From positions 620,001 to 684,000 of the forward strand of contig NZ_CP035926.1 of NCBI RefSeq assembly GCF_004214815.1: a stretch of 64,000 nucleotides of DNA, given 5' to 3'. How positions within the stretch are numbered: the stretch's first letter is position 1; every line of letters begins with the position of its first letter. A program made the translations under genes and the position numbers. Under the pieces are notes generated by a model that was not told the origin of the DNA, made no database searches, and was given only the letters and a program-made list of their open reading frames with translations. Positions 53,031 to 64,000 of this stretch are shown one piece after another. This stretch comes from Aliarcobacter thereius LMG 24486. GTDB taxonomy: Bacteria; Campylobacterota; Campylobacteria; Campylobacterales; Arcobacteraceae.

Positions 53031-54293
53031 CTAATAAGTTGATTTAGAGTAGATAATGAATTGATTAGCTAGAGATTCAAGTTCTTTACTAATTTTAGCT
53101 TGTAAAGAAGAATCTTCAATATTATCTAAAACATCACAAATTTTATTTGCAATAAACTCAAACTCTTTCTCTTTCATTCCACGAGCAGTTAATGCTGGAC
53201 TACCAATTCTAATACCTGAAGTTACAAATGGGCTTCTTGTTTCTCCTGGAACTGTATTTTTATTTACAGTAATTCCAGCATTACCTAAAGCAGCATCTGC
53301 ATCTTTACCTGAGAAAGGTTTATTTAAAAATGATACTAAAACCAAGTGATTATCTGTTCCATCACTTACTATATCATATCCTCTTTTAATAAGAACATCA
53401 GCTAATACTTTAGCATTTGCTTTTACTTGTTTTGCATAATCTTTCCATTTTGGATCTAAAACTTCTTTAAATGCAACAGCTTTTGCAGCAATTACATGCA
53501 TAAGTGGTCCACCTTGAAGTCCTGGGAATATTGCACTATTTACTTTTTTAGCAATATCTTCATCATTTGTCATAATAACTCCACCTCTTGGTCCTCTTAG
53601 AGTTTTATGAGTTGTTGTTGTTACAACATCAGCATAAGGAAATGGACTCATATGCTCACCTGCTGCAACTAATCCAGCAATATGTGCAATATCAGCAAAT
53701 AAAATAGCACCAACTTTATTTGCTACTTCTTTAAATCTTTTAAAATCAATCTCTCTTGCATAAGCACTTGCTCCACATACAATTATTTTTGGCATAACAG
53801 TTTTTGCAATCTCTTCTAATTTATCATAATTGATTCTTCCATCAAGTTCAACTCCATAATAAAATGCTGAGTAGTTTTGACCAGAAAAACTTGGTTTACT
53901 TCCATGAGTTAAATGCCCACCATGAGATAAATCCATTCCTAAAATTCTATCTCCTGCTTTAAGTAATGCTGCATAAACTGCACCATTTGCTTGAGATCCA
54001 CTATGTGGTTGAACATTTGCAAATTTACAATCAAATATTTTACAAACTCTATCAATAGCTAATTGTTCAACTTTATCAGCTTGTTCACACCCACCATAAT
54101 ATCTTTTATATGGATAACCCTCTGCATATTTGTTTGTAAAAACTGAACCCATTACTTGCATTACTGCTGGACTTGTAAAATTCTCACTTGCTATCATCTC
54201 TAGATGATTCGTCTGTCTTACTAGCTCAGCCTCTACTATATCAAATACCTCTTTATCAGCTATCTCTAAACTATCGCTTGTTATGTACTTCAT
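53031..54293 (-). CDS. glyA: serine hydroxymethyltransferase
   Basis: A 420-residue PLP enzyme converting serine and tetrahydrofolate to glycine and methylene-tetrahydrofolate. The PLP lysine is in [15 protein letters not shown] (about residue 226). [20 protein letters not shown] near the start and [17 protein letters not shown] are typical. It follows the DUF6172 gene by 76 bases, and a copy of the repeated 19-base motif lies just downstream of that gene's stop, so glyA probably has its own promoter. Confidence 0.97.
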
Positions 54294-54347
54294 ATCTTTT
54301 CCTTAAAGTAATTTTATTTTGAAATACTACTAAAAATCAAATAAGAT

Positions 54348-54366
54348 AACAATCCAAAAATTGCTA
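54348..54366 (-). promoter_or_regulatory. repeated motif, copy 3, upstream of glyA
   Basis: On the minus strand TAGCAATTTTTGGATTGTT lies between the DUF6172 gene stop and glyA. It is identical to the copy before benE. A TATTTGAT-like -10 lies nearby, so it may mark an internal glyA promoter. Confidence 0.6.
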
Positions 54367-54369
54367 TAC

Positions 54370-54684
54370 CTAATCTTCTATAATTTCATCATCAATAGAT
54401 TGTTTCTTTTCTTTAAAAATCGCACTTGCAATAATCTCTAAATAAAAACTTGAATAGTTCTCTTTATTTGCAAAATCAACAGATTTTATAATATCTGCAA
54501 AGCTTATCTCAATTGCCTCTTCTATTGATTTTCCAAATTTACAATCAAAAAACCATGTATTAAAGCTTTCAGGTAGTTTTTTACTTTTTTCTCTTTTTAT
54601 ATATTTTCTAATCTCATTTTTTATGCTATCAACTTGTCTATCTCTTGTTTTATTAACTACATCTATTAAAAATTGTTTTTTCAT
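54370..54684 (-). CDS. DUF6172-family protein
   Basis: A 104-residue protein: VDSIKNEIRKYIKREKSKKL followed by FNTWFFDCKFGKSIEEAIEI and NKENYSSFYLEIIASAIF fit a small conserved family (DUF6172) found in Proteobacteria and Campylobacterota. The function is unknown. It lies upstream of glyA, an arrangement I also recall from C. jejuni. Confidence 0.65.
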   Translation of the reverse strand: MKKQFLIDVVNKTRDRQVDSIKNEIRKYIKREKSKKLPESFNTWFFDCKFGKSIEEAIEISFADIIKSVDFANKENYSSFYLEIIASAIFKEKKQSIDDEIIED

Positions 54685-54773
54685 TTTCTGTCCTTTTTTT
54701 TGAAAAATGATTATACCAATATTATAAGATAATTCTGATATAATCTAAGCTATTTTTTAGCTAAAGAGAAAAA

Positions 54774-55910
54774 TTGAAAATTAAAATACCAGAAAATATA
54801 AAACATTTGGATACAAAAGAGATAAAAGAGAATCTTTTTCATTATTCATATGATAATAAGAATTTAAAATCACTAATTAAAAAAGATATTTCAAAAGATG
54901 ATTTGTCTTATATAACAGCTTATAGTAGTTTCAAAGGTGAGATTTATGAAAATATCATTTATGAACTATTATTAAAATATGCACAAAACTGTGAAGATAT
55001 TGAGAGTTTTATTTTAAAAGGACCATATCAAGCAAAAGAGAATGTATATTTAAAAAGTGGACTTTTAATTAGTAAAACTTCACAAATAGTATTTAAATCA
55101 GCATATAAAGATATAAGTGAATTTGATGCAATATTTTTTACAAAAGATAAACTATATTTTGTGGAGATGAGTACATCTAAAAAAACATCAAATTTAAATA
55201 AAAGATTAGCAAAAAAACAAGCTTTATTAAAATTGATTTTCCCATTTTTAGAGATAAATGCTTTAATAGTTCTTACAAAAGGTTCTTCAGGACTTAAAAA
55301 CTTTCCATCTTATGCAACAATTTGGCTAACTGATGATTTGGAAGATGAAGAGTTAATAAACAAGATAATTTTTGCAAAAAAAGTTAAAAATGATTTACAA
55401 ACATTAGAAGTTCCAAATATTAAAAAATTCACTGAAGCTTTCAGAATAAAGTATAAGAAGTTTGCATATTTTCCTACTTTACAATGGATTTTAGAGAGTA
55501 GTAGAAAAAATCCGAAATTTGTTGTAGATTTAAGATTTTTTAGAAATCCTAAAATGGATCTATATTTTGATATTTATACAAAATTATATATTGGATATTT
55601 AAGTAAAGATGATTTTAAAAGGCTTTATAGCGAATTTGATATGGATTTAGTTGATGATAAAGTAATTGTAACTTTAGAAAAAATAAATCAAAATGAGATA
55701 GATATCGTTTATTATGCAAAATTAAAAAATAGAAAACTATTTAGAATAAGATTAGAAGAAATTGTAAGCATAAAAGAGAAAGAACAAGATGGTTTTACAA
55801 ATGCAGAAGTGAGATTTTTTTCAAAAGTTTTTGAAGAGAAACATATTTTAAAGTTTGATGATATAAAGCACATATTAAAACATATATCTATGATTGGATT
55901 TAAAAAATGA
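54774..55910 (+). CDS. nuclease-like protein of unknown function
   Basis: A 378-residue protein starting at TTG 54774. The N-terminal part has GEIYENIIYELLLKYAQ, then SEFDAIFFTKDKLYFVEMST and SKKTSN, a layout like the PD-(D/E)XK fold: an acidic helix, a strand with Asp, then a strand ending in Glu. The usual lysine two residues after Glu is Ser, so the active site would be altered. The C-terminal half shows no known domain. Its stop overlaps the start of the CNNM gene by four bases, so the three genes here form one operon. Confidence 0.6.
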   Translation: MKIKIPENIKHLDTKEIKENLFHYSYDNKNLKSLIKKDISKDDLSYITAYSSFKGEIYENIIYELLLKYAQNCEDIESFILKGPYQAKENVYLKSGLLISKTSQIVFKSAYKDISEFDAIFFTKDKLYFVEMSTSKKTSNLNKRLAKKQALLKLIFPFLEINALIVLTKGSSGLKNFPSYATIWLTDDLEDEELINKIIFAKKVKNDLQTLEVPNIKKFTEAFRIKYKKFAYFPTLQWILESSRKNPKFVVDLRFFRNPKMDLYFDIYTKLYIGYLSKDDFKRLYSEFDMDLVDDKVIVTLEKINQNEIDIVYYAKLKNRKLFRIRLEEIVSIKEKEQDGFTNAEVRFFSKVFEEKHILKFDDIKHILKHISMIGFKK

Positions 55911-57581: not shown

Positions 57582-57932
57582 TTACCAAGAGATAGCAGCT
57601 CCACTTGCTCCCATAATCTCTTTGGCATCTTCACTCATCATATGAGGTTCCCAAACAGGTTCAAATACTAAATTAACTTTTGTTTCATCAACTTCATCAA
57701 CAGCCATAGATACATATCTAACTTGTTCAAGTAAACTATCAGCAACAGGACAAGCAGGACTTGTAAGAGTCATCTCTATCTCACAAAATAGATAGTTATC
57801 TCTCTCTTCTAGTTCTATACTATAAATTAAACCTAAATTATAGATATCCACAGGTATTTCAGGATCATAAACTTTTTTTATATTCTCTATGATTTTCTCT
57901 TTTATCTCTTCTTTATTAAAAATATTACTCAT
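57582..57932 (-). CDS. MIP18/SufT-like iron-sulfur assembly protein
   Basis: A 116-residue protein of the MIP18 (DUF59) family. VYDPEIPVDIYNLGLIYSIE and TLTSPACPVADSLLEQVR carry the conserved residues, including the Cys in SPACP. It acts in maturation or targeting of iron-sulfur proteins. It is the last gene of the SUF operon, 9 bases after sufE. The name SufT is applied to a related domain fusion; here only the DUF59 part exists. Confidence 0.82.
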   Translation of the reverse strand: MSNIFNKEEIKEKIIENIKKVYDPEIPVDIYNLGLIYSIELEERDNYLFCEIEMTLTSPACPVADSLLEQVRYVSMAVDEVDETKVNLVFEPVWEPHMMSEDAKEIMGASGAAISW

Positions 57933-57941
57933 TTTATTTCC

Positions 57942-58349
57942 TTAACTTTTTAAAGCATACTCTTTTATTTTTTTAATCATTCCAATTACTCCACTTTGTC
58001 TATTTGGAGTAATCACTTCGCTAAGACCTAACTCTTTTACAACATCCATATCAATTTGTTTTAACTCATCTATTGTTGAATTTGAGAAAATACTTAAAAT
58101 AATATATACTAAACCTTTTACAATAATAGCATCACTTGTTCCATAAAAAAACAGTTTATTCTCTTTTTGTTCACAAATTAACCAAACTTGTGAAGTACAA
58201 CCATGAACTAAATTTTCAGGAATTTTATAACTATCTTCAAAATCTGGAAGTTTTTTACCCAAATCAATAATATATTCATATTTTGCTAACTCTTCTTCAA
58301 AAAAATCTAAATCTTCTTTAATATCCTCAATTCTTTGTTTAATACTCAT
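57942..58349 (-). CDS. sufE: SufE sulfur acceptor
   Basis: A 135-residue protein with the catalytic Cys51 in LVHGCTSQVW. SufE accepts persulfide sulfur from SufS and hands it to SufB. It is 4 bases after sufS in the operon, in the expected order. Confidence 0.95.
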   Translation of the reverse strand: MSIKQRIEDIKEDLDFFEEELAKYEYIIDLGKKLPDFEDSYKIPENLVHGCTSQVWLICEQKENKLFFYGTSDAIIVKGLVYIILSIFSNSTIDELKQIDMDVVKELGLSEVITPNRQSGVIGMIKKIKEYALKS

Positions 58350-58353
58350 TATT

Positions 58354-59541
58354 TTAATCCTTTAACATACTTAAAGCTCGTTTTAAAGCTACAATTAATT
58401 TATCAATATCTTCAAAATCATTGTAAAAAGCTAAACTAACTCTAATTGTTCCTTTTATATTTAATTTATTCATTATTGGCATTGCACAATGATGACCAAC
58501 TCTTAGAGCAATTCCCATTTTATCAAGTAAAATAGAGATATCATCATGCATAATTCCTTTGAAGTTAAAACTTCTACTTCCATTACAGTTTTTTATATCA
58601 TTATAAAAAATAATATCAGGAAGTTTTTTTAACTCATCATTTAAATAAATTAAAAGCTCATCTTTTCTTTTTTTAATATTTTCATAAGTAATGTTTTCTA
58701 TATAATTTAAAGACTCTTTAAAAGCTATAACTCCAGCAATATTTTGAGTTCCTGCTTCAAATTTATATGGACTTGATAAAAAGCTTGTACCTTTTTCAAA
58801 ATCAACTGTATGAATAGATGCCCCACCTGTAATATAAGGCTCAACTTCATCAAAGAACTTCTCTTTTATATAAATAGCTCCAACTCCTGTTGGACCAAAA
58901 GTTTTATGTGCAGAAATTGCAAAAAAATCACAATTTATATCTTGAACATCTATTTTGAAACTACTTAAACTTTGAGCTCCATCTATTAAAACTACACTTT
59001 GATATTTGTGAGCCAAAGATACAATTCTTTTAATATCATAAACTACACCAAAAGCATTTGTAACATGAGCAACACTTACAAAAGAGTTTGGATTTTCTTT
59101 TAAAAGTTCTTCAAAATGATTGTAATCAAAGTCTAAATTTGAATCACAATTTACAACTAGAAGACCATTTCCTAAAGTTCTATTTTGCATATGCCAAGGA
59201 ACAATATTTGCATGATGTTCAAGGCTAGAGATTATTACCGTTTTAAATTTTTTTGCAAATGAAGAAGCTATGAAATTTATACTTTGTGTAACACCACTTG
59301 TAAAAATAATCTCCTCTTTTTTATTTGCATTTATAAATTTCTGTAAAACTTCTCTTGTTTTCTCAAATTCTGTTGTAGCAATTGCTGCATCTCCAAATCC
59401 ACTTCTATGAGTATTTGAACAATATTCATTGTAATATTTTAAAGTAGAATCAATTACACTTTTTGGTTTTTGAGTTGTTGCTCCATTATCTAGATAAACT
59501 GTTTTTGACTTACTAAAAAATGGAAAATCTTTTTTATACAT
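58354..59541 (-). CDS. sufS: cysteine desulfurase SufS
   Basis: A 395-residue PLP enzyme. VYLDNGATTQKP near the start, the cofactor lysine in FFAISAHKTFGPTGVGAIYI, and the persulfide-forming Cys in RVGHHCAMPIM identify a group II desulfurase. It removes sulfur from cysteine and gives it to SufE. Its start abuts the sufD stop with no gap. Confidence 0.95.
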   Translation of the reverse strand: MYKKDFPFFSKSKTVYLDNGATTQKPKSVIDSTLKYYNEYCSNTHRSGFGDAAIATTEFEKTREVLQKFINANKKEEIIFTSGVTQSINFIASSFAKKFKTVIISSLEHHANIVPWHMQNRTLGNGLLVVNCDSNLDFDYNHFEELLKENPNSFVSVAHVTNAFGVVYDIKRIVSLAHKYQSVVLIDGAQSLSSFKIDVQDINCDFFAISAHKTFGPTGVGAIYIKEKFFDEVEPYITGGASIHTVDFEKGTSFLSSPYKFEAGTQNIAGVIAFKESLNYIENITYENIKKRKDELLIYLNDELKKLPDIIFYNDIKNCNGSRSFNFKGIMHDDISILLDKMGIALRVGHHCAMPIMNKLNIKGTIRVSLAFYNDFEDIDKLIVALKRALSMLKD

Positions 59542-60582
59542 CTATATAAAACTCTCTTTTTTATAGTTTTCTACAAACTCTTGTAATTTTTCATCTTTTA
59601 AATTATCTTTAATTGAACTTTCAAATGCTTCAAGTAAAATTTTATAAGCTTCATCTTTTTTTATTCCTCTTGATTGAAGATAATATAATTGATCTTTATC
59701 TAAAGTTCCTGTTGTTGTTCCATGACTTGCTTCAAGTTCATCAATGAATATTTCTAAAAATGGTTGAGCAAAAACAACTGCATCATTACTTAATAAAATT
59801 GAGTTACAATTTTGGAAAGCTTTCGAATAAAGTCCTGTTTCTGTAACTATTGATTTGATTTTTACAACAGCTCTTGAATTATCAAGTAAAGAGTTTTTAT
59901 AGTTTATATTACTTCTTGAATTTTCATTATTATGAGTTGTTCTTACAAGAGTTGAAGTGTTTGCTTTATCTCTTAGCTTATTTAAACCATTTAGTTCATA
60001 GTTTACATTTAAAGAATCAATTTTATTTTCAAAACTATTTACAATAAATCCATCACCTAATTCAAAGTTTGAAATTTCTAAATTTGATTTATCATTTTGA
60101 ATAGATTTACAAGCAAAAACTAAAGAGTTTGAGCTTGAAATATCTTGATTTTTTATATATTCCAAAGATGCATTTTTACCAAGTTTTATAACTCTATTTG
60201 CAAAAACTGCTGAATCCTTAGATGAAGAGACAAAAACTTCAATAATAGAGGCTTTTACTCCATCTTTAATCTCTATTAAAAGATTATTTGAGAATAAAGT
60301 CGAATTCTCTTTTAAGCTATTTATTAAAATAATTGGTTCAAGAGTATCTTTTTCTATTTTTAGAATTTTTTGATTTTTATCTAAACTATTTGTAATATAA
60401 AAAAGCTTTGATTCATAATTTTCTTTATCTTCTTGGTTTAAAAAAGAGATATTTGAATCTGTTTTAAAATCTAAAATCTTTTTATCTTTAAAATCAAAAT
60501 CAAATAGATTTGAGAAGTCAATTTTTAAAAACTCTTCCTCTTTCTTATGAGGTAAATTATTGTTTAAATTAATTATCTGCAT
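59542..60582 (-). CDS. sufD: SufD, SUF scaffold complex subunit
   Basis: A 346-residue SufD. The C-terminal LEASHGTTTGTLDKDQLYYL and QSRGIKKDEAYKILLEAFES include the His that ligates the nascent cluster, and the middle is the typical beta-helix. It forms the SufBC2D complex. Its start overlaps the sufC end by 14 bases. Confidence 0.94.
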   Translation of the reverse strand: MQIINLNNNLPHKKEEEFLKIDFSNLFDFDFKDKKILDFKTDSNISFLNQEDKENYESKLFYITNSLDKNQKILKIEKDTLEPIILINSLKENSTLFSNNLLIEIKDGVKASIIEVFVSSSKDSAVFANRVIKLGKNASLEYIKNQDISSSNSLVFACKSIQNDKSNLEISNFELGDGFIVNSFENKIDSLNVNYELNGLNKLRDKANTSTLVRTTHNNENSRSNINYKNSLLDNSRAVVKIKSIVTETGLYSKAFQNCNSILLSNDAVVFAQPFLEIFIDELEASHGTTTGTLDKDQLYYLQSRGIKKDEAYKILLEAFESSIKDNLKDEKLQEFVENYKKESFI

Positions 60583-61327
60583 TGTTTATTCCTAATGCTT
60601 CAAACCCTTTCTCATCAAGTTCTAAAGCTAAGTTATAATCTCCTGTTTTAGCAATCTTTCCATTACTTAAAATATGTACAAAATCAGGTTTTATAAGTTC
60701 TAAAAGTCTATCATAGTGAGTAATCATAAGAATTGATTTTTTCCCATCAAGCATAGAATTTATAACATTTGCAACAATTTTAATTGCATCAACATCAAGA
60801 CCACTATCAATTTCATCAAGCATTATTAAATCAGGATTTAGCATTAAAAGTTGAATTAGTTCATTTCTCTTTTTTTCTCCACCACTAAAACCATCGTTTA
60901 AATCTCTTTGTAAAAGTTTTCTATCAATATCATATTTATTTGTTTCTTCTTTTACAAGTTTTAAAAATTGCATTGCATCAAGCTCTTCTTTACCTTCATA
61001 AGCTCTTTTTGCATTCATAGCAGTTCTTAAAAAATAGCTATTGTTTACTCCAGAAACTTCAACAGGACTTTGAAAACTCATGAAAATTCCCTCATTTGCT
61101 CTATCTGCTGCATCCATTTCTAATAAATCTTTATTTTTAAATGTAATCTTTCCACCATTTACTTCACAGTCATAGTGTGCTGCTAAAGTTTTAACTAAAG
61201 TTGATTTTCCAGCTCCATTCACACCCATTAAAACATGAACTTCACCTGGATTTATCTCTAGGTTTAAACCTTTTAAAATTTCATTATTATTTATACTTAC
61301 TTTTAAATCTTCAATTTTTAATAACAT
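60569..61327 (-). CDS. sufC: SufC ATPase
   Basis: A 252-residue ABC-type ATPase with Walker A GVNGAGKST, the signature FSGGEKKRNELIQLL and Walker B LIMLDEIDSGLD. It powers SufBC2D. A terminator-like hairpin lies between sufB and this gene (61339-61365). Confidence 0.96.
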   Translation of the reverse strand: MLLKIEDLKVSINNNEILKGLNLEINPGEVHVLMGVNGAGKSTLVKTLAAHYDCEVNGGKITFKNKDLLEMDAADRANEGIFMSFQSPVEVSGVNNSYFLRTAMNAKRAYEGKEELDAMQFLKLVKEETNKYDIDRKLLQRDLNDGFSGGEKKRNELIQLLMLNPDLIMLDEIDSGLDVDAIKIVANVINSMLDGKKSILMITHYDRLLELIKPDFVHILSNGKIAKTGDYNLALELDEKGFEALGINNADN

Positions 61328-61338
61328 CTATTATCCTT

Positions 61339-61365
61339 AAAAAATTTTCCATCTTTTGGAAATTT
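61339..61365 (-). promoter_or_regulatory. hairpin in the sufB-sufC gap, possible attenuator
   Basis: In the mRNA sense, AAATTTCCA and TGGAAAATTT form a stem with a five-base loop, followed by a run of six Us and then the AAGGAT ribosome-binding site of sufC. It looks like an intrinsic terminator in front of sufC, so it may lower sufCDSE relative to sufB. A further small hairpin (CACTTTT/AAAAGTG, 61377-61393) lies upstream. Confidence 0.5.
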
Positions 61366-61429
61366 ATATAATATAACACTTTTATAAAAAGTGATAAAAC
61401 TTTATAAAAAGCAATTTATTACTTCTTAT

Positions 61430-62866
61430 TTAACCAACACTTCCTTCTAAAGAGATACTTAACAACTCTTTTGCTTCAGCAGCAAATTCCATTGGTAACT
61501 CTTTTAAAACCTCTTTACAAAAACCATTTACAATCATAGCAATAGCATCTTCTTCATCTATTCCTCTTTGATTAAGATAAAAAAGTTGTTCATCAGAAAT
61601 TTTTGAAGTTGTTGCTTCATGTTCAATATTTGCACTACTATTTCTTATTTCATGATAAGGATAAGTATGTGCTTGGCATTTGTGACCAATCAACAAAGAA
61701 TCACATTCAGATATATTTCTTGCATTATCAGCATTTTTTCCAACTCTTACAAGTCCTCGATAAGCATTTATACCTTTCATAGCAGATATACCTTTTGAGA
61801 TAATTGTAGATTTTGTATTTTTACCTAAATGAATCATTTTTGTACCAGTATCAGCTTGTTGAGCTCTTGAAGTAATAGCAACAGAGTAAAACTCTCCAAC
61901 ACTATTATCTCCTTGTAAAACACATGAAGGATATTTCCAAGTAATACTTGAACCAGTTTCAACTTGTGTCCAAGATACTTTTGAATTATCACCTTTACAT
62001 AAAGCTCTTTTTGTAACAAAGTTAAGTATTCCACCTTTTCCTTCATCATCACCTGGGAACCAGTTTTGAATAGTTGAATATTTTATATGTCCATTTTCAA
62101 GTGCAACTAACTCAACAACTGCTGCGTGAAGTTGTCTATCATCTCTACTAGGAGCAGAACAACCTTCATTATAAGATACATAAGAACCTTCATCACAAAT
62201 GATTAATGTTCTTTCAAACTGACCTGTATTTAAAGCATTTATTCTAAAATAAGTAGAAAGTTCCATTGGACATCTTGTGTTTTTTGGAATATATACAAAA
62301 CTTCCATCTGTAAAAACTGCACTATTTAAAGCAGCAAAATAGTTATCCGTTACAGGAACTACACTTGCTAAATAGGTTTTTACTAAATCAGGGAATCTGT
62401 GAGCAGCTTCACTAATAGAACAAAATATAATTCCTAACTTTTCAAGTTCATCTTGATATGTAGTTTTTATTGAAACTGAATCAAATACTGCATCAACAGC
62501 AACACCTGCAAGCATTTTTTGCTCTTCAAGTGGAATTCCTAATTTTTCATAAGTTTTTAATATCTCTGGATCTACTTCATCCAAAGAACCAAGTGCTTTT
62601 TTTGGTGCTGAATAGTAAGCATAATCTTGATAATCTATTTTTGAATATTTTAAAAATGTCCAATCTGGCTCTTCCATTTTAAGCCATTTTTCATAAGCTT
62701 TTAGTCTAAAATCTAATAAAAATTCTGGTTCTTCTTTTTTTGCACTAATAGCTCTTATTACATCTTCATTTAAACCTTTTTCAAAAGTATCACTTTGAAC
62801 TAATGTTTCAAAGCCTAGTTTGTAATCAGTGTTTATAATGTCATGTATTTGTTGGTTATCACTCAT
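61430..62866 (-). CDS. sufB: SufB, SUF scaffold complex subunit
   Basis: A 478-residue SufB. The motif [20 protein letters not shown] and [20 protein letters not shown] carry the C-terminal cysteine and ligand region; the N-terminal half matches E. coli-type SufB. It receives sulfur from SufE and builds clusters with SufC and SufD. The ATG at 62866 follows GGAGAAG. It is first in the operon; a 102-base gap to sufC contains hairpins. Divergent from nifU. Confidence 0.97.
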
Positions 62867-62894
62867 GACTTCTCCATAAAAAATTTATTTTAAA

Positions 62895-62913
62895 TAGGAC
62901 AAGTTTTATCCTA
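62895..62913. promoter_or_regulatory. 8-3-8 palindrome, site 1 near sufB
   Basis: TAGGACAA-GTT-TTATCCTA with one mismatch between arms. It is 29 bases upstream of the sufB ATG, just ahead of a TAAAAT -10-like box on the minus strand. Confidence 0.6.
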
Positions 62914-63023
62914 ATTGGAATAATATCAAAATAAGTATATAATGTAAAGGCATAAATACTAATAAAGCAAATAAGTATTTGTTAATTCTATAAATAAACA
63001 CCTTTACTATGGCATATTAAAAT

Positions 63024-63042
63024 TAAGATAAATATTATCCTA
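63024..63042. promoter_or_regulatory. 8-3-8 palindrome, site 2 near nifU
   Basis: TAAGATAA-ATA-TTATCCTA with one mismatch, the right arm identical to site 1. It is 51 bases upstream of the nifU ATG. Together the two sites suggest one regulator for both genes. Confidence 0.6.
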
Positions 63043-63093
63043 TTTTAAATAAAATATGGGAATTTTAATAAGTATATAAAAAATGGAAAAATA

Positions 63094-64000
63094 ATGAAAG
63101 AATATTCAAAAAAGATAAATGAAAGAGTAGACAATCCAAAACACTTTGGAGAGATTAGTAAAATTGAAGCAGAAGCTTTGGGTTGTAAATTAGTTGTAGT
63201 TGATTATGAAGGAAATGCTAATGATACTATTAGAGTCTATTTTGCAATAACAAAAGATAGAAATGTTTTTACAGCAAAGTTTAAATCATTTTCAAGTGGA
63301 TTAATAGTTGCTTTAAATGATATGATGATAGAACTTTGTATTGGAAAAAGTATAGAAAAAGTTTCAAGTATGTTTAAAACAGATGTTGAATTCGCATTAA
63401 GAGATGAGCCACAAATTCCAGCATTAAGTATTGAAGAGTTACATAATAGTTTTTTAAATTTTGTAATATTAAAAAAAGTTGCACTAAAATTTGATGAAAG
63501 AAATATGGAAGACTTTGCCGATGATTATATCATTTGTGAATGTGCAAGAGTAAATTTAAAAACAATTAAAGATGCAATAAAAGAGTTTAATCTTAAAACT
63601 ATTGAAGAAATAGGTGAGAAAACAAAAGCAGGAATATTTTGTAAATCATGTAGAAACGAAGGTGGATTGGAAGAAAAAGAGATCTATTTAAGTGATATTT
63701 TAGAACAAACACTAAAAGAATTAGATAACAGTCAAGCTCCTTCTTATATGAATAGCTCTTTTAATGATATGACAAAAGAACAAAAACTTGAACTTATAGA
63801 AGATGTTTTGGATGATGATATAAGACCAATGCTTATTATGGATGGTGGAAATATGGAGATATTAGATTTGGTTGAATCAAAACCACATTATGATCTATAT
63901 ATTAGATATTTAGGAGCATGTAGTGGATGTAGTGCAGGTAGTATGGGAACATTATATGCTATTGAATCAATTCTACAAAATAAAGTAGATGAAAATTTAA
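63094..64000 (+). CDS. nifU: NifU-like iron-sulfur protein with degenerate scaffold domain (cut by window edge)
   Basis: The visible 302 codons form a three-domain NifU. Residues 1-125 match the IscU-like N-terminal scaffold of H. pylori NifU, but the three cluster cysteines are gone: the 'ACGD' region reads NANDT, 'FGCG' reads FSSG (66-69) and the later 'HC' reads HN (117-118). The Bfd-type [2Fe-2S] domain is intact (CECAR at 148-152, CKSC at 183-186), as is the Nfu domain (GACSGC at 274-279). It is divergent from sufB with shared palindromic sites. Likely a cluster carrier rather than a primary scaffold. Confidence 0.9.
   Translation, partial: MKEYSKKINERVDNPKHFGEISKIEAEALGCKLVVVDYEGNANDTIRVYFAITKDRNVFTAKFKSFSSGLIVALNDMMIELCIGKSIEKVSSMFKTDVEFALRDEPQIPALSIEELHNSFLNFVILKKVALKFDERNMEDFADDYIICECARVNLKTIKDAIKEFNLKTIEEIGEKTKAGIFCKSCRNEGGLEEKEIYLSDILEQTLKELDNSQAPSYMNSSFNDMTKEQKLELIEDVLDDDIRPMLIMDGGNMEILDLVESKPHYDLYIRYLGACSGCSAGSMGTLYAIESILQNKVDENL

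Follow-up and report, generated by a model that had tools for sequence, protein, structure and literature searches.

The stretch of Aliarcobacter thereius LMG 24486 DNA that was analyzed (64,000 nucleotides, hereafter the window) contains a suf operon and a divergently oriented nifU gene. The operon, sufB-sufC-sufD-sufS-sufE-sufT, is complete and occupies positions 57582-62866 of the minus strand; nifU is transcribed away from it. Two of its genes, sufB (61430-62866) and sufC (60569-61327), exceed the cut-offs of their families (TIGR01980, 641 bits, and TIGR01978, 338 bits, respectively). The divergent sufD (59542-60582) scores 182 bits with TIGR01981 (cut-off 222) and matches Pfam SUFBD_core, sufS (58354-59541) scores 425 bits with TIGR01979, under the cut-off of 475, and sufE (57942-58349) scores 131 bits with Pfam SufE; the sufT-like gene (57582-57932) encodes a DUF59 protein matching Pfam FeS_assembly_P and TIGR02945 (114 bits, under the cut-off of 143). 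The active-site lysine (SAHKTFG) and cysteine (RVGHHCAMP) of SufS and the HGCTSQVW cysteine of SufE are present. A preliminary description of this DNA had assumed a complete SUF system, which the joint occurrence of sufB, sufC, sufD, sufS and sufE confirmed.

The nifU reading frame starts at 63094 on the plus strand and extends beyond the window (63094-64000 within it); the full gene of 307 codons ends at the window equivalent of position 64017. All three NifU domains are recognized by Pfam: NifU_N (residues 3-137), Fer2_BFD (146-189; 41.8 bits) and NifU/Nfu (235-301; PF01106, 61.4 bits). With TIGR02000, the equivalog model of NifU scaffolds, the copy in the window, from which only the last five residues are missing, scores 95.3 bits, below the cut-off of 273.3.

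NifU and IscU scaffolds need three cysteines and an aspartate to build a cluster. We mapped these sites in an alignment of 13 NifUs lacking the cysteines (Cys-less) and 16 canonical NifUs from the same genus. The IscU-like (U) domain of the window's protein (residues 1-127; 63094-63474) has no scaffold cysteine: canonical C54 (Cys1) is deleted between A42 and N43, C81 (Cys2) corresponds to Ser68 (63295-63297; FGCG to FSSG) and C131 (Cys3) to Asn118 (63445-63447; PPQKMHCS to SIEELHNS). The aspartate beside Cys1 (CGD) is retained as D44 in the triplet A42-N43-D44 (63217-63225). The four cysteines of the Bfd-like [2Fe-2S] domain (C148, C150, C183 and C186; 63535-63651) and the CxxC motif of the Nfu domain (C276 and C279; 63919-63930) are intact. 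The preliminary description had reported the same three losses and the same intact motifs, and its gap and Asn118 were placed correctly, but the Cys2 site is Ser68 and not Ser67. Of the other cysteines in the U domain, C82 is an ancestral non-ligand residue that every canonical NifU of the genus shares, and C31 is peculiar to most Cys-less members (11 of the 13 aligned). The U domain is predicted to retain the IscU fold, as its AlphaFold model best matches ISCU/IscU structures in the PDB (human ISCU 8rmc_D, E 4.6e-8, TM (target) 0.81).

The protein thus lacks two defining features of a scaffold, the three U-domain cysteines and a NifS partner. A further scaffold elsewhere was ruled out, since the genome (one contig, 100% complete) encodes no second NifU_N protein. 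We also found no A-type carrier in this genome, which encodes one small Nfu without any U-type domain. By gene content and sequence, SUF is the only assembly system remaining in this genome. The hybrid NIF/SUF machine proposed in the preliminary description is therefore overstated: the assembly half of NIF is gone and a carrier alone is left.

To place the loss, we surveyed 31 genomes of the genus, 14 of them Cys-less and 16 canonical; in the remaining one (G024), whose suf contig is truncated, we detected neither nifS nor nifU. NifU_N scores were two-peaked (about 146 bits versus about 50-94 bits), and none of the 14 low scorers has any of the three scaffold cysteines, a repetition that rules out chance and sequencing error at these codons. 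In both the SufBCDSE tree and the rpoB tree, the Cys-less species group in a single clade with 100% support; A. cryaerophilus gv. crypticus LMG 9065 is among them. The window's NifU and those of 12 relatives retain D44 together with the Bfd and Nfu ligands.

One member of the clade, G025, is odd. Its NifU (L045, 9345-10304) does not have the one-residue deletion of the clade, carries Tyr, Arg and Val at the Cys1, Cys2 and Cys3 sites, respectively, and shares only about 52% identity with the window's protein; its intergenic region and the trees place the genome with G028, and the gene was perhaps replaced. An AU test strongly rejected a basal position of G025 within the clade, a result on which we do not rely, given the fast search behind the constrained tree and a suspiciously large logL difference. 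Despite G025, several independent losses are unneeded to explain a single fully supported clade, and scaffold loss within Aliarcobacter is one event.

The presence of nifS follows the same division. Searches with the NifS model found nifS in 16 of 16 canonical species (650-660 bits) and in none of the 14 Cys-less ones, where the highest scores, at most 130 bits, belong to SufS-like enzymes or other distant members of class V; in the window's genome SufS alone exceeds 100 bits. Relocation of nifS in this genome was ruled out, the sole other weak match being a SufS-related class V enzyme of 433 aa (L056, 1408-2709; genome position about 1,894,300). This enzyme probably corresponds to H. pylori HP0405, described as 'NifS-like, unknown', and is a possible second sulfur donor. 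Because the loss in Aliarcobacter is one event, the correlation between nifS and the cysteines (14/14 and 16/16) does not amount to 30 independent points.

Gene order shows how nifS was lost. Canonical species have sufB on the minus strand followed by nifS and nifU on the plus strand, and in Cys-less species sufB and nifU are separated by 185-240 bp. In the window this divergent intergenic region, the position of nifS in relatives, spans 62867-63093 and contains two 19-bp inverted repeats, TAGGACAAGTTTTATCCTA on the sufB side (62895-62913) and TAAGATAAATATTATCCTA on the nifU side (63024-63042). Both are copies of the palindrome TARGAY-N7-RTCCTA, of which the rest of the window has one further site, with a mismatch required. 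The palindrome also occurs upstream of sufB and of nifS in relatives, the latter across Arcobacteraceae, and is probably the operator of an Fe-S regulator. In the Cys-less arrangement, nifS has been excised between the putative operator and nifU, which now stands opposite sufB with paired copies of the palindrome. Since the nifU-side copy precedes nifS in relatives, nifU apparently inherited the nifS operator and is probably still co-regulated with suf. The divergent arrangement and the shared putative operator would also fit a U domain that docks specifically to SufBCD or SufS, draws clusters off SUF and plays no part in target recognition; we regard this as very unlikely, given that the small Nfu of the same genome has no such domain.

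SUF was found in both groups of the genus and in the sampled outgroup genera, with the same neighbours, and must have been gained long before the cysteines were lost. The preliminary description had derived the loss of the scaffold from the gain of SUF. A complete SUF system is indeed present, but its gain was not the immediate trigger, as an intact nifS-nifU pair stands beside SUF in the 16 canonical species and in the outgroup genera sampled.

The Cys-less protein is not decaying. Its reading frame is intact in all 14 genomes, and the U domain is under strong purifying selection, with an omega of 0.053 in 13 Cys-less species versus 0.041 in the canonical ones. The Bfd and Nfu domains of the Cys-less clade have ratios of 0.098 and 0.038, respectively; synonymous change is saturated in deep pairs, and close pairs give 0.06-0.16. 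At about 17 U-domain positions of the genus alignment, a residue invariant in canonical NifUs has been replaced by a different one fixed in 13 of 13 Cys-less proteins (for example, Q18 to K7, E52 to N41, S87 to L74, I109 to T96, P126 to I113 and A135 to N122). Clade-wide refixation of this kind looks like a change of function and not like decay. That NifU became dispensable after the loss of nifS and is on its way out, a course suggested by the missing nifS and by the group f8 g31, which has SUF and wholly lacks nifSU, is thus highly improbable, and the view of the preliminary description that simple decay does not explain this protein is upheld.

The residues at the former ligand sites bear on another alternative, namely that the U domain still binds a metal without cysteines, such as ferrous iron or zinc held by D44 together with residue 118 (N, E or D), and serves as an iron donor or as a regulator of SufS-SufE. 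D44 is invariant across 26 aligned NifUs, and the Cys3 site is solely N, E or D in 13 Cys-less species. However, no invariant set of four ligands exists: the Cys2 site varies between S, G and T, G025 has V at the Cys3 site, and the aspartate is not kept in the second Cys-less lineage described below. As the role of a persulfide shuttle is, moreover, already filled by SufE, we consider a metal-binding U domain quite unlikely.

A survey of 397 good genomes of Campylobacterota revealed this second group. In family f4, the NifUs of genera g23 (five genomes) and g50 (two genomes) and of G408, including that of G158, apparently Nitratifractor salsuginis, lack all three cysteines. This loss is independent of that in Aliarcobacter, and only this lineage gives the correlation independent support. 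A nifS-like gene still adjoins nifU in all eight genomes, but each of the encoded proteins has T, A, N, L, R or another replacement at the PLP lysine of SAHKFHGP and nothing intact of the catalytic-cysteine loop GSACASEDLE, whereas both features persist in the canonical relatives within f4. These NifS proteins (L140-L147, from G158, G329, G106, G301, G196, G228, G417 and G408) are predicted pseudo-desulfurases. In g23 they are still selected, with an omega of 0.098, as are the Cys-less U domain (0.103) and the Nfu domain (0.034). SufB was found in seven of the eight genomes, the exception being G408, a MAG of 280 contigs, which has a Cys-less NifU and a degenerate NifS and in which we did not find sufB. 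The event coinciding with cysteine loss is therefore the deletion of NifS in Aliarcobacter or its inactivation in the Nitratifractor lineage, not the gain of SUF.

Several other observations came from the phylum survey. Low NifU_N scorers included single-domain U proteins from f4 and f8 g31 (L119, L123-L127, L113-L122), which were read one by one and set apart; they have NGE or TGE in place of CGD and only two of three scaffold-type cysteines, and represent another variant of the U fold that occurs with SUF. Searches with the NifS model found no active NifS/SufS-type desulfurase in G158 (L152, L157), where a MetY-like enzyme and the dead NifS were the only matches, and nothing in f8 g31; SufBCD is present in both, and their sulfur source is perhaps sulfide. 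The one-contig genome G241 carries nifS and nifU fragments with in-frame stops at 53391-55074 (L129, L139), either pseudogenes or assembly errors, and sufB was not found in it.

Comparison of the two lineages shows which motifs were retained. All 22 Cys-less NifUs have the Nfu CxxC, which is the only motif preserved throughout; G196 and G301 (g50) have lost the Bfd cysteines, and G408 lacks the Bfd domain altogether. The core function retained would accordingly be cluster carriage by the Nfu domain, and electron transfer would be secondary. This pattern bears directly on the possibility that Cys-less NifU is kept mainly for electron transfer, with the Bfd [2Fe-2S] cluster feeding electrons to SufBCD and the other domains acting as its scaffolding. 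The four Bfd cysteines are conserved in 14 of 14 proteins of the Cys-less Aliarcobacter clade, where electron transfer may matter, and the electron donor of SufBCD is stated as unknown (PMC8593673). The losses in the parallel lineage and the higher omega of Bfd than of Nfu in the Cys-less clade nevertheless make such a role unlikely as the main one. Consequently, of the two functions suggested in the preliminary description, cluster carrier and electron transfer, the former is favoured.

We then compared Cys-less NifU with known proteins. It resembles NifU proper (TIGR02000; H. pylori, Campylobacter, Azotobacter) in the U-Bfd-Nfu order, full-length homology, the Bfd and Nfu ligands and the CGD aspartate, and its gene lies in the same locus as those of its canonical relatives; it differs in the absence of Cys1, Cys2, Cys3 and a NifS partner and in the replaced PPQKMHC loop. 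SufU, a zinc sulfurtransferase paralogue of IscU that needs its cysteines and zinc, likewise has the IscU fold and occurs with SUF, but Cys-less NifU has no cysteines at the zinc site and its genome encodes SufE instead. Small Nfu carriers such as H. pylori HP1492 share the Nfu CxxC domain but have neither U nor Bfd. The closest parallel in proposed action is NfuA (TIGR03341; E. coli, Azotobacter), which combines a degenerate, non-ligating carrier-type domain with an active Nfu domain (PMC8593673). Although the degenerate A-type domain of E. coli NfuA does not itself bind a cluster, it is required in vivo and directs the Nfu domain to apo-proteins (PMC8593673). The sequence features expected of such a mode are present in Cys-less NifU, namely a conserved Nfu CxxC and an N-terminal domain without ligand cysteines that is still selected. 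It falls outside the NfuA family, however (TIGR03341, 25.7 bits versus a cut-off of 269): the degenerate domain of NfuA is A-type (IscA-like) and no Bfd is present, whereas the N-terminal domain of Cys-less NifU is IscU-like. No previous description of a Cys-less NifU emerged from our search of the literature outside subscription papers.

Taken together, these data suggest that Cys-less NifU is probably a former scaffold turned Nfu-type Fe-S cluster carrier for SUF, whose retired U domain is kept for docking. On this reading, the ancestor had NIF (nifS-nifU) and SUF side by side, and nifS was deleted next; with the sulfur donor gone, NifU lost its three scaffold cysteines and the PPQKMHC loop. 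Gene content and sequence suggest that clusters are now built on SufBCD. The U domain would keep its fold and be refixed for another task, most likely that of docking to the many existing apo-targets of NifU, to SufBCD, or to both. The Nfu domain would take over the cluster and hand it on to targets, and the Bfd [2Fe-2S] domain, where kept, would help in redox chemistry. Cluster binding, cluster transfer and contact with SufBCD are what we infer for this protein. H. pylori NifU contacts 29 Fe-S proteins in two-hybrid assays (PMC8144621), and so the function of NifU as a delivery hub probably predates the loss of its scaffold role.

Epsilonproteobacteria such as Helicobacter or Campylobacter have been described as having NIF as their only Fe-S system (PMC8144621). 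A group including the emerging pathogen A. cryaerophilus appears to build its clusters by SUF only, keeping a disarmed NifU. Since Cys-less NifUs still clear the Pfam NifU thresholds, they are easily mistaken for scaffolds and would mislead pathway reconstruction. The phylum offers a series from intact NIF with SUF, through a lost NifS with a disarmed NifU and a dead NifS with a disarmed NifU, to no NifSU at all; it allows tests of how one machine for Fe-S clusters is replaced by another and of which part of NifU is essential to cells. More tentatively, such 'post-scaffold' NIF proteins may have arisen repeatedly in Campylobacterota, as SUF takes over, NifS is deleted or becomes non-catalytic and NifU loses its cysteines, the dead NifS-NifU pair or NifU alone then acting as a delivery or targeting module for SUF-built clusters. 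If true, post-scaffold NifS and NifU would represent a new class of Fe-S maturation factors without catalytic activity.
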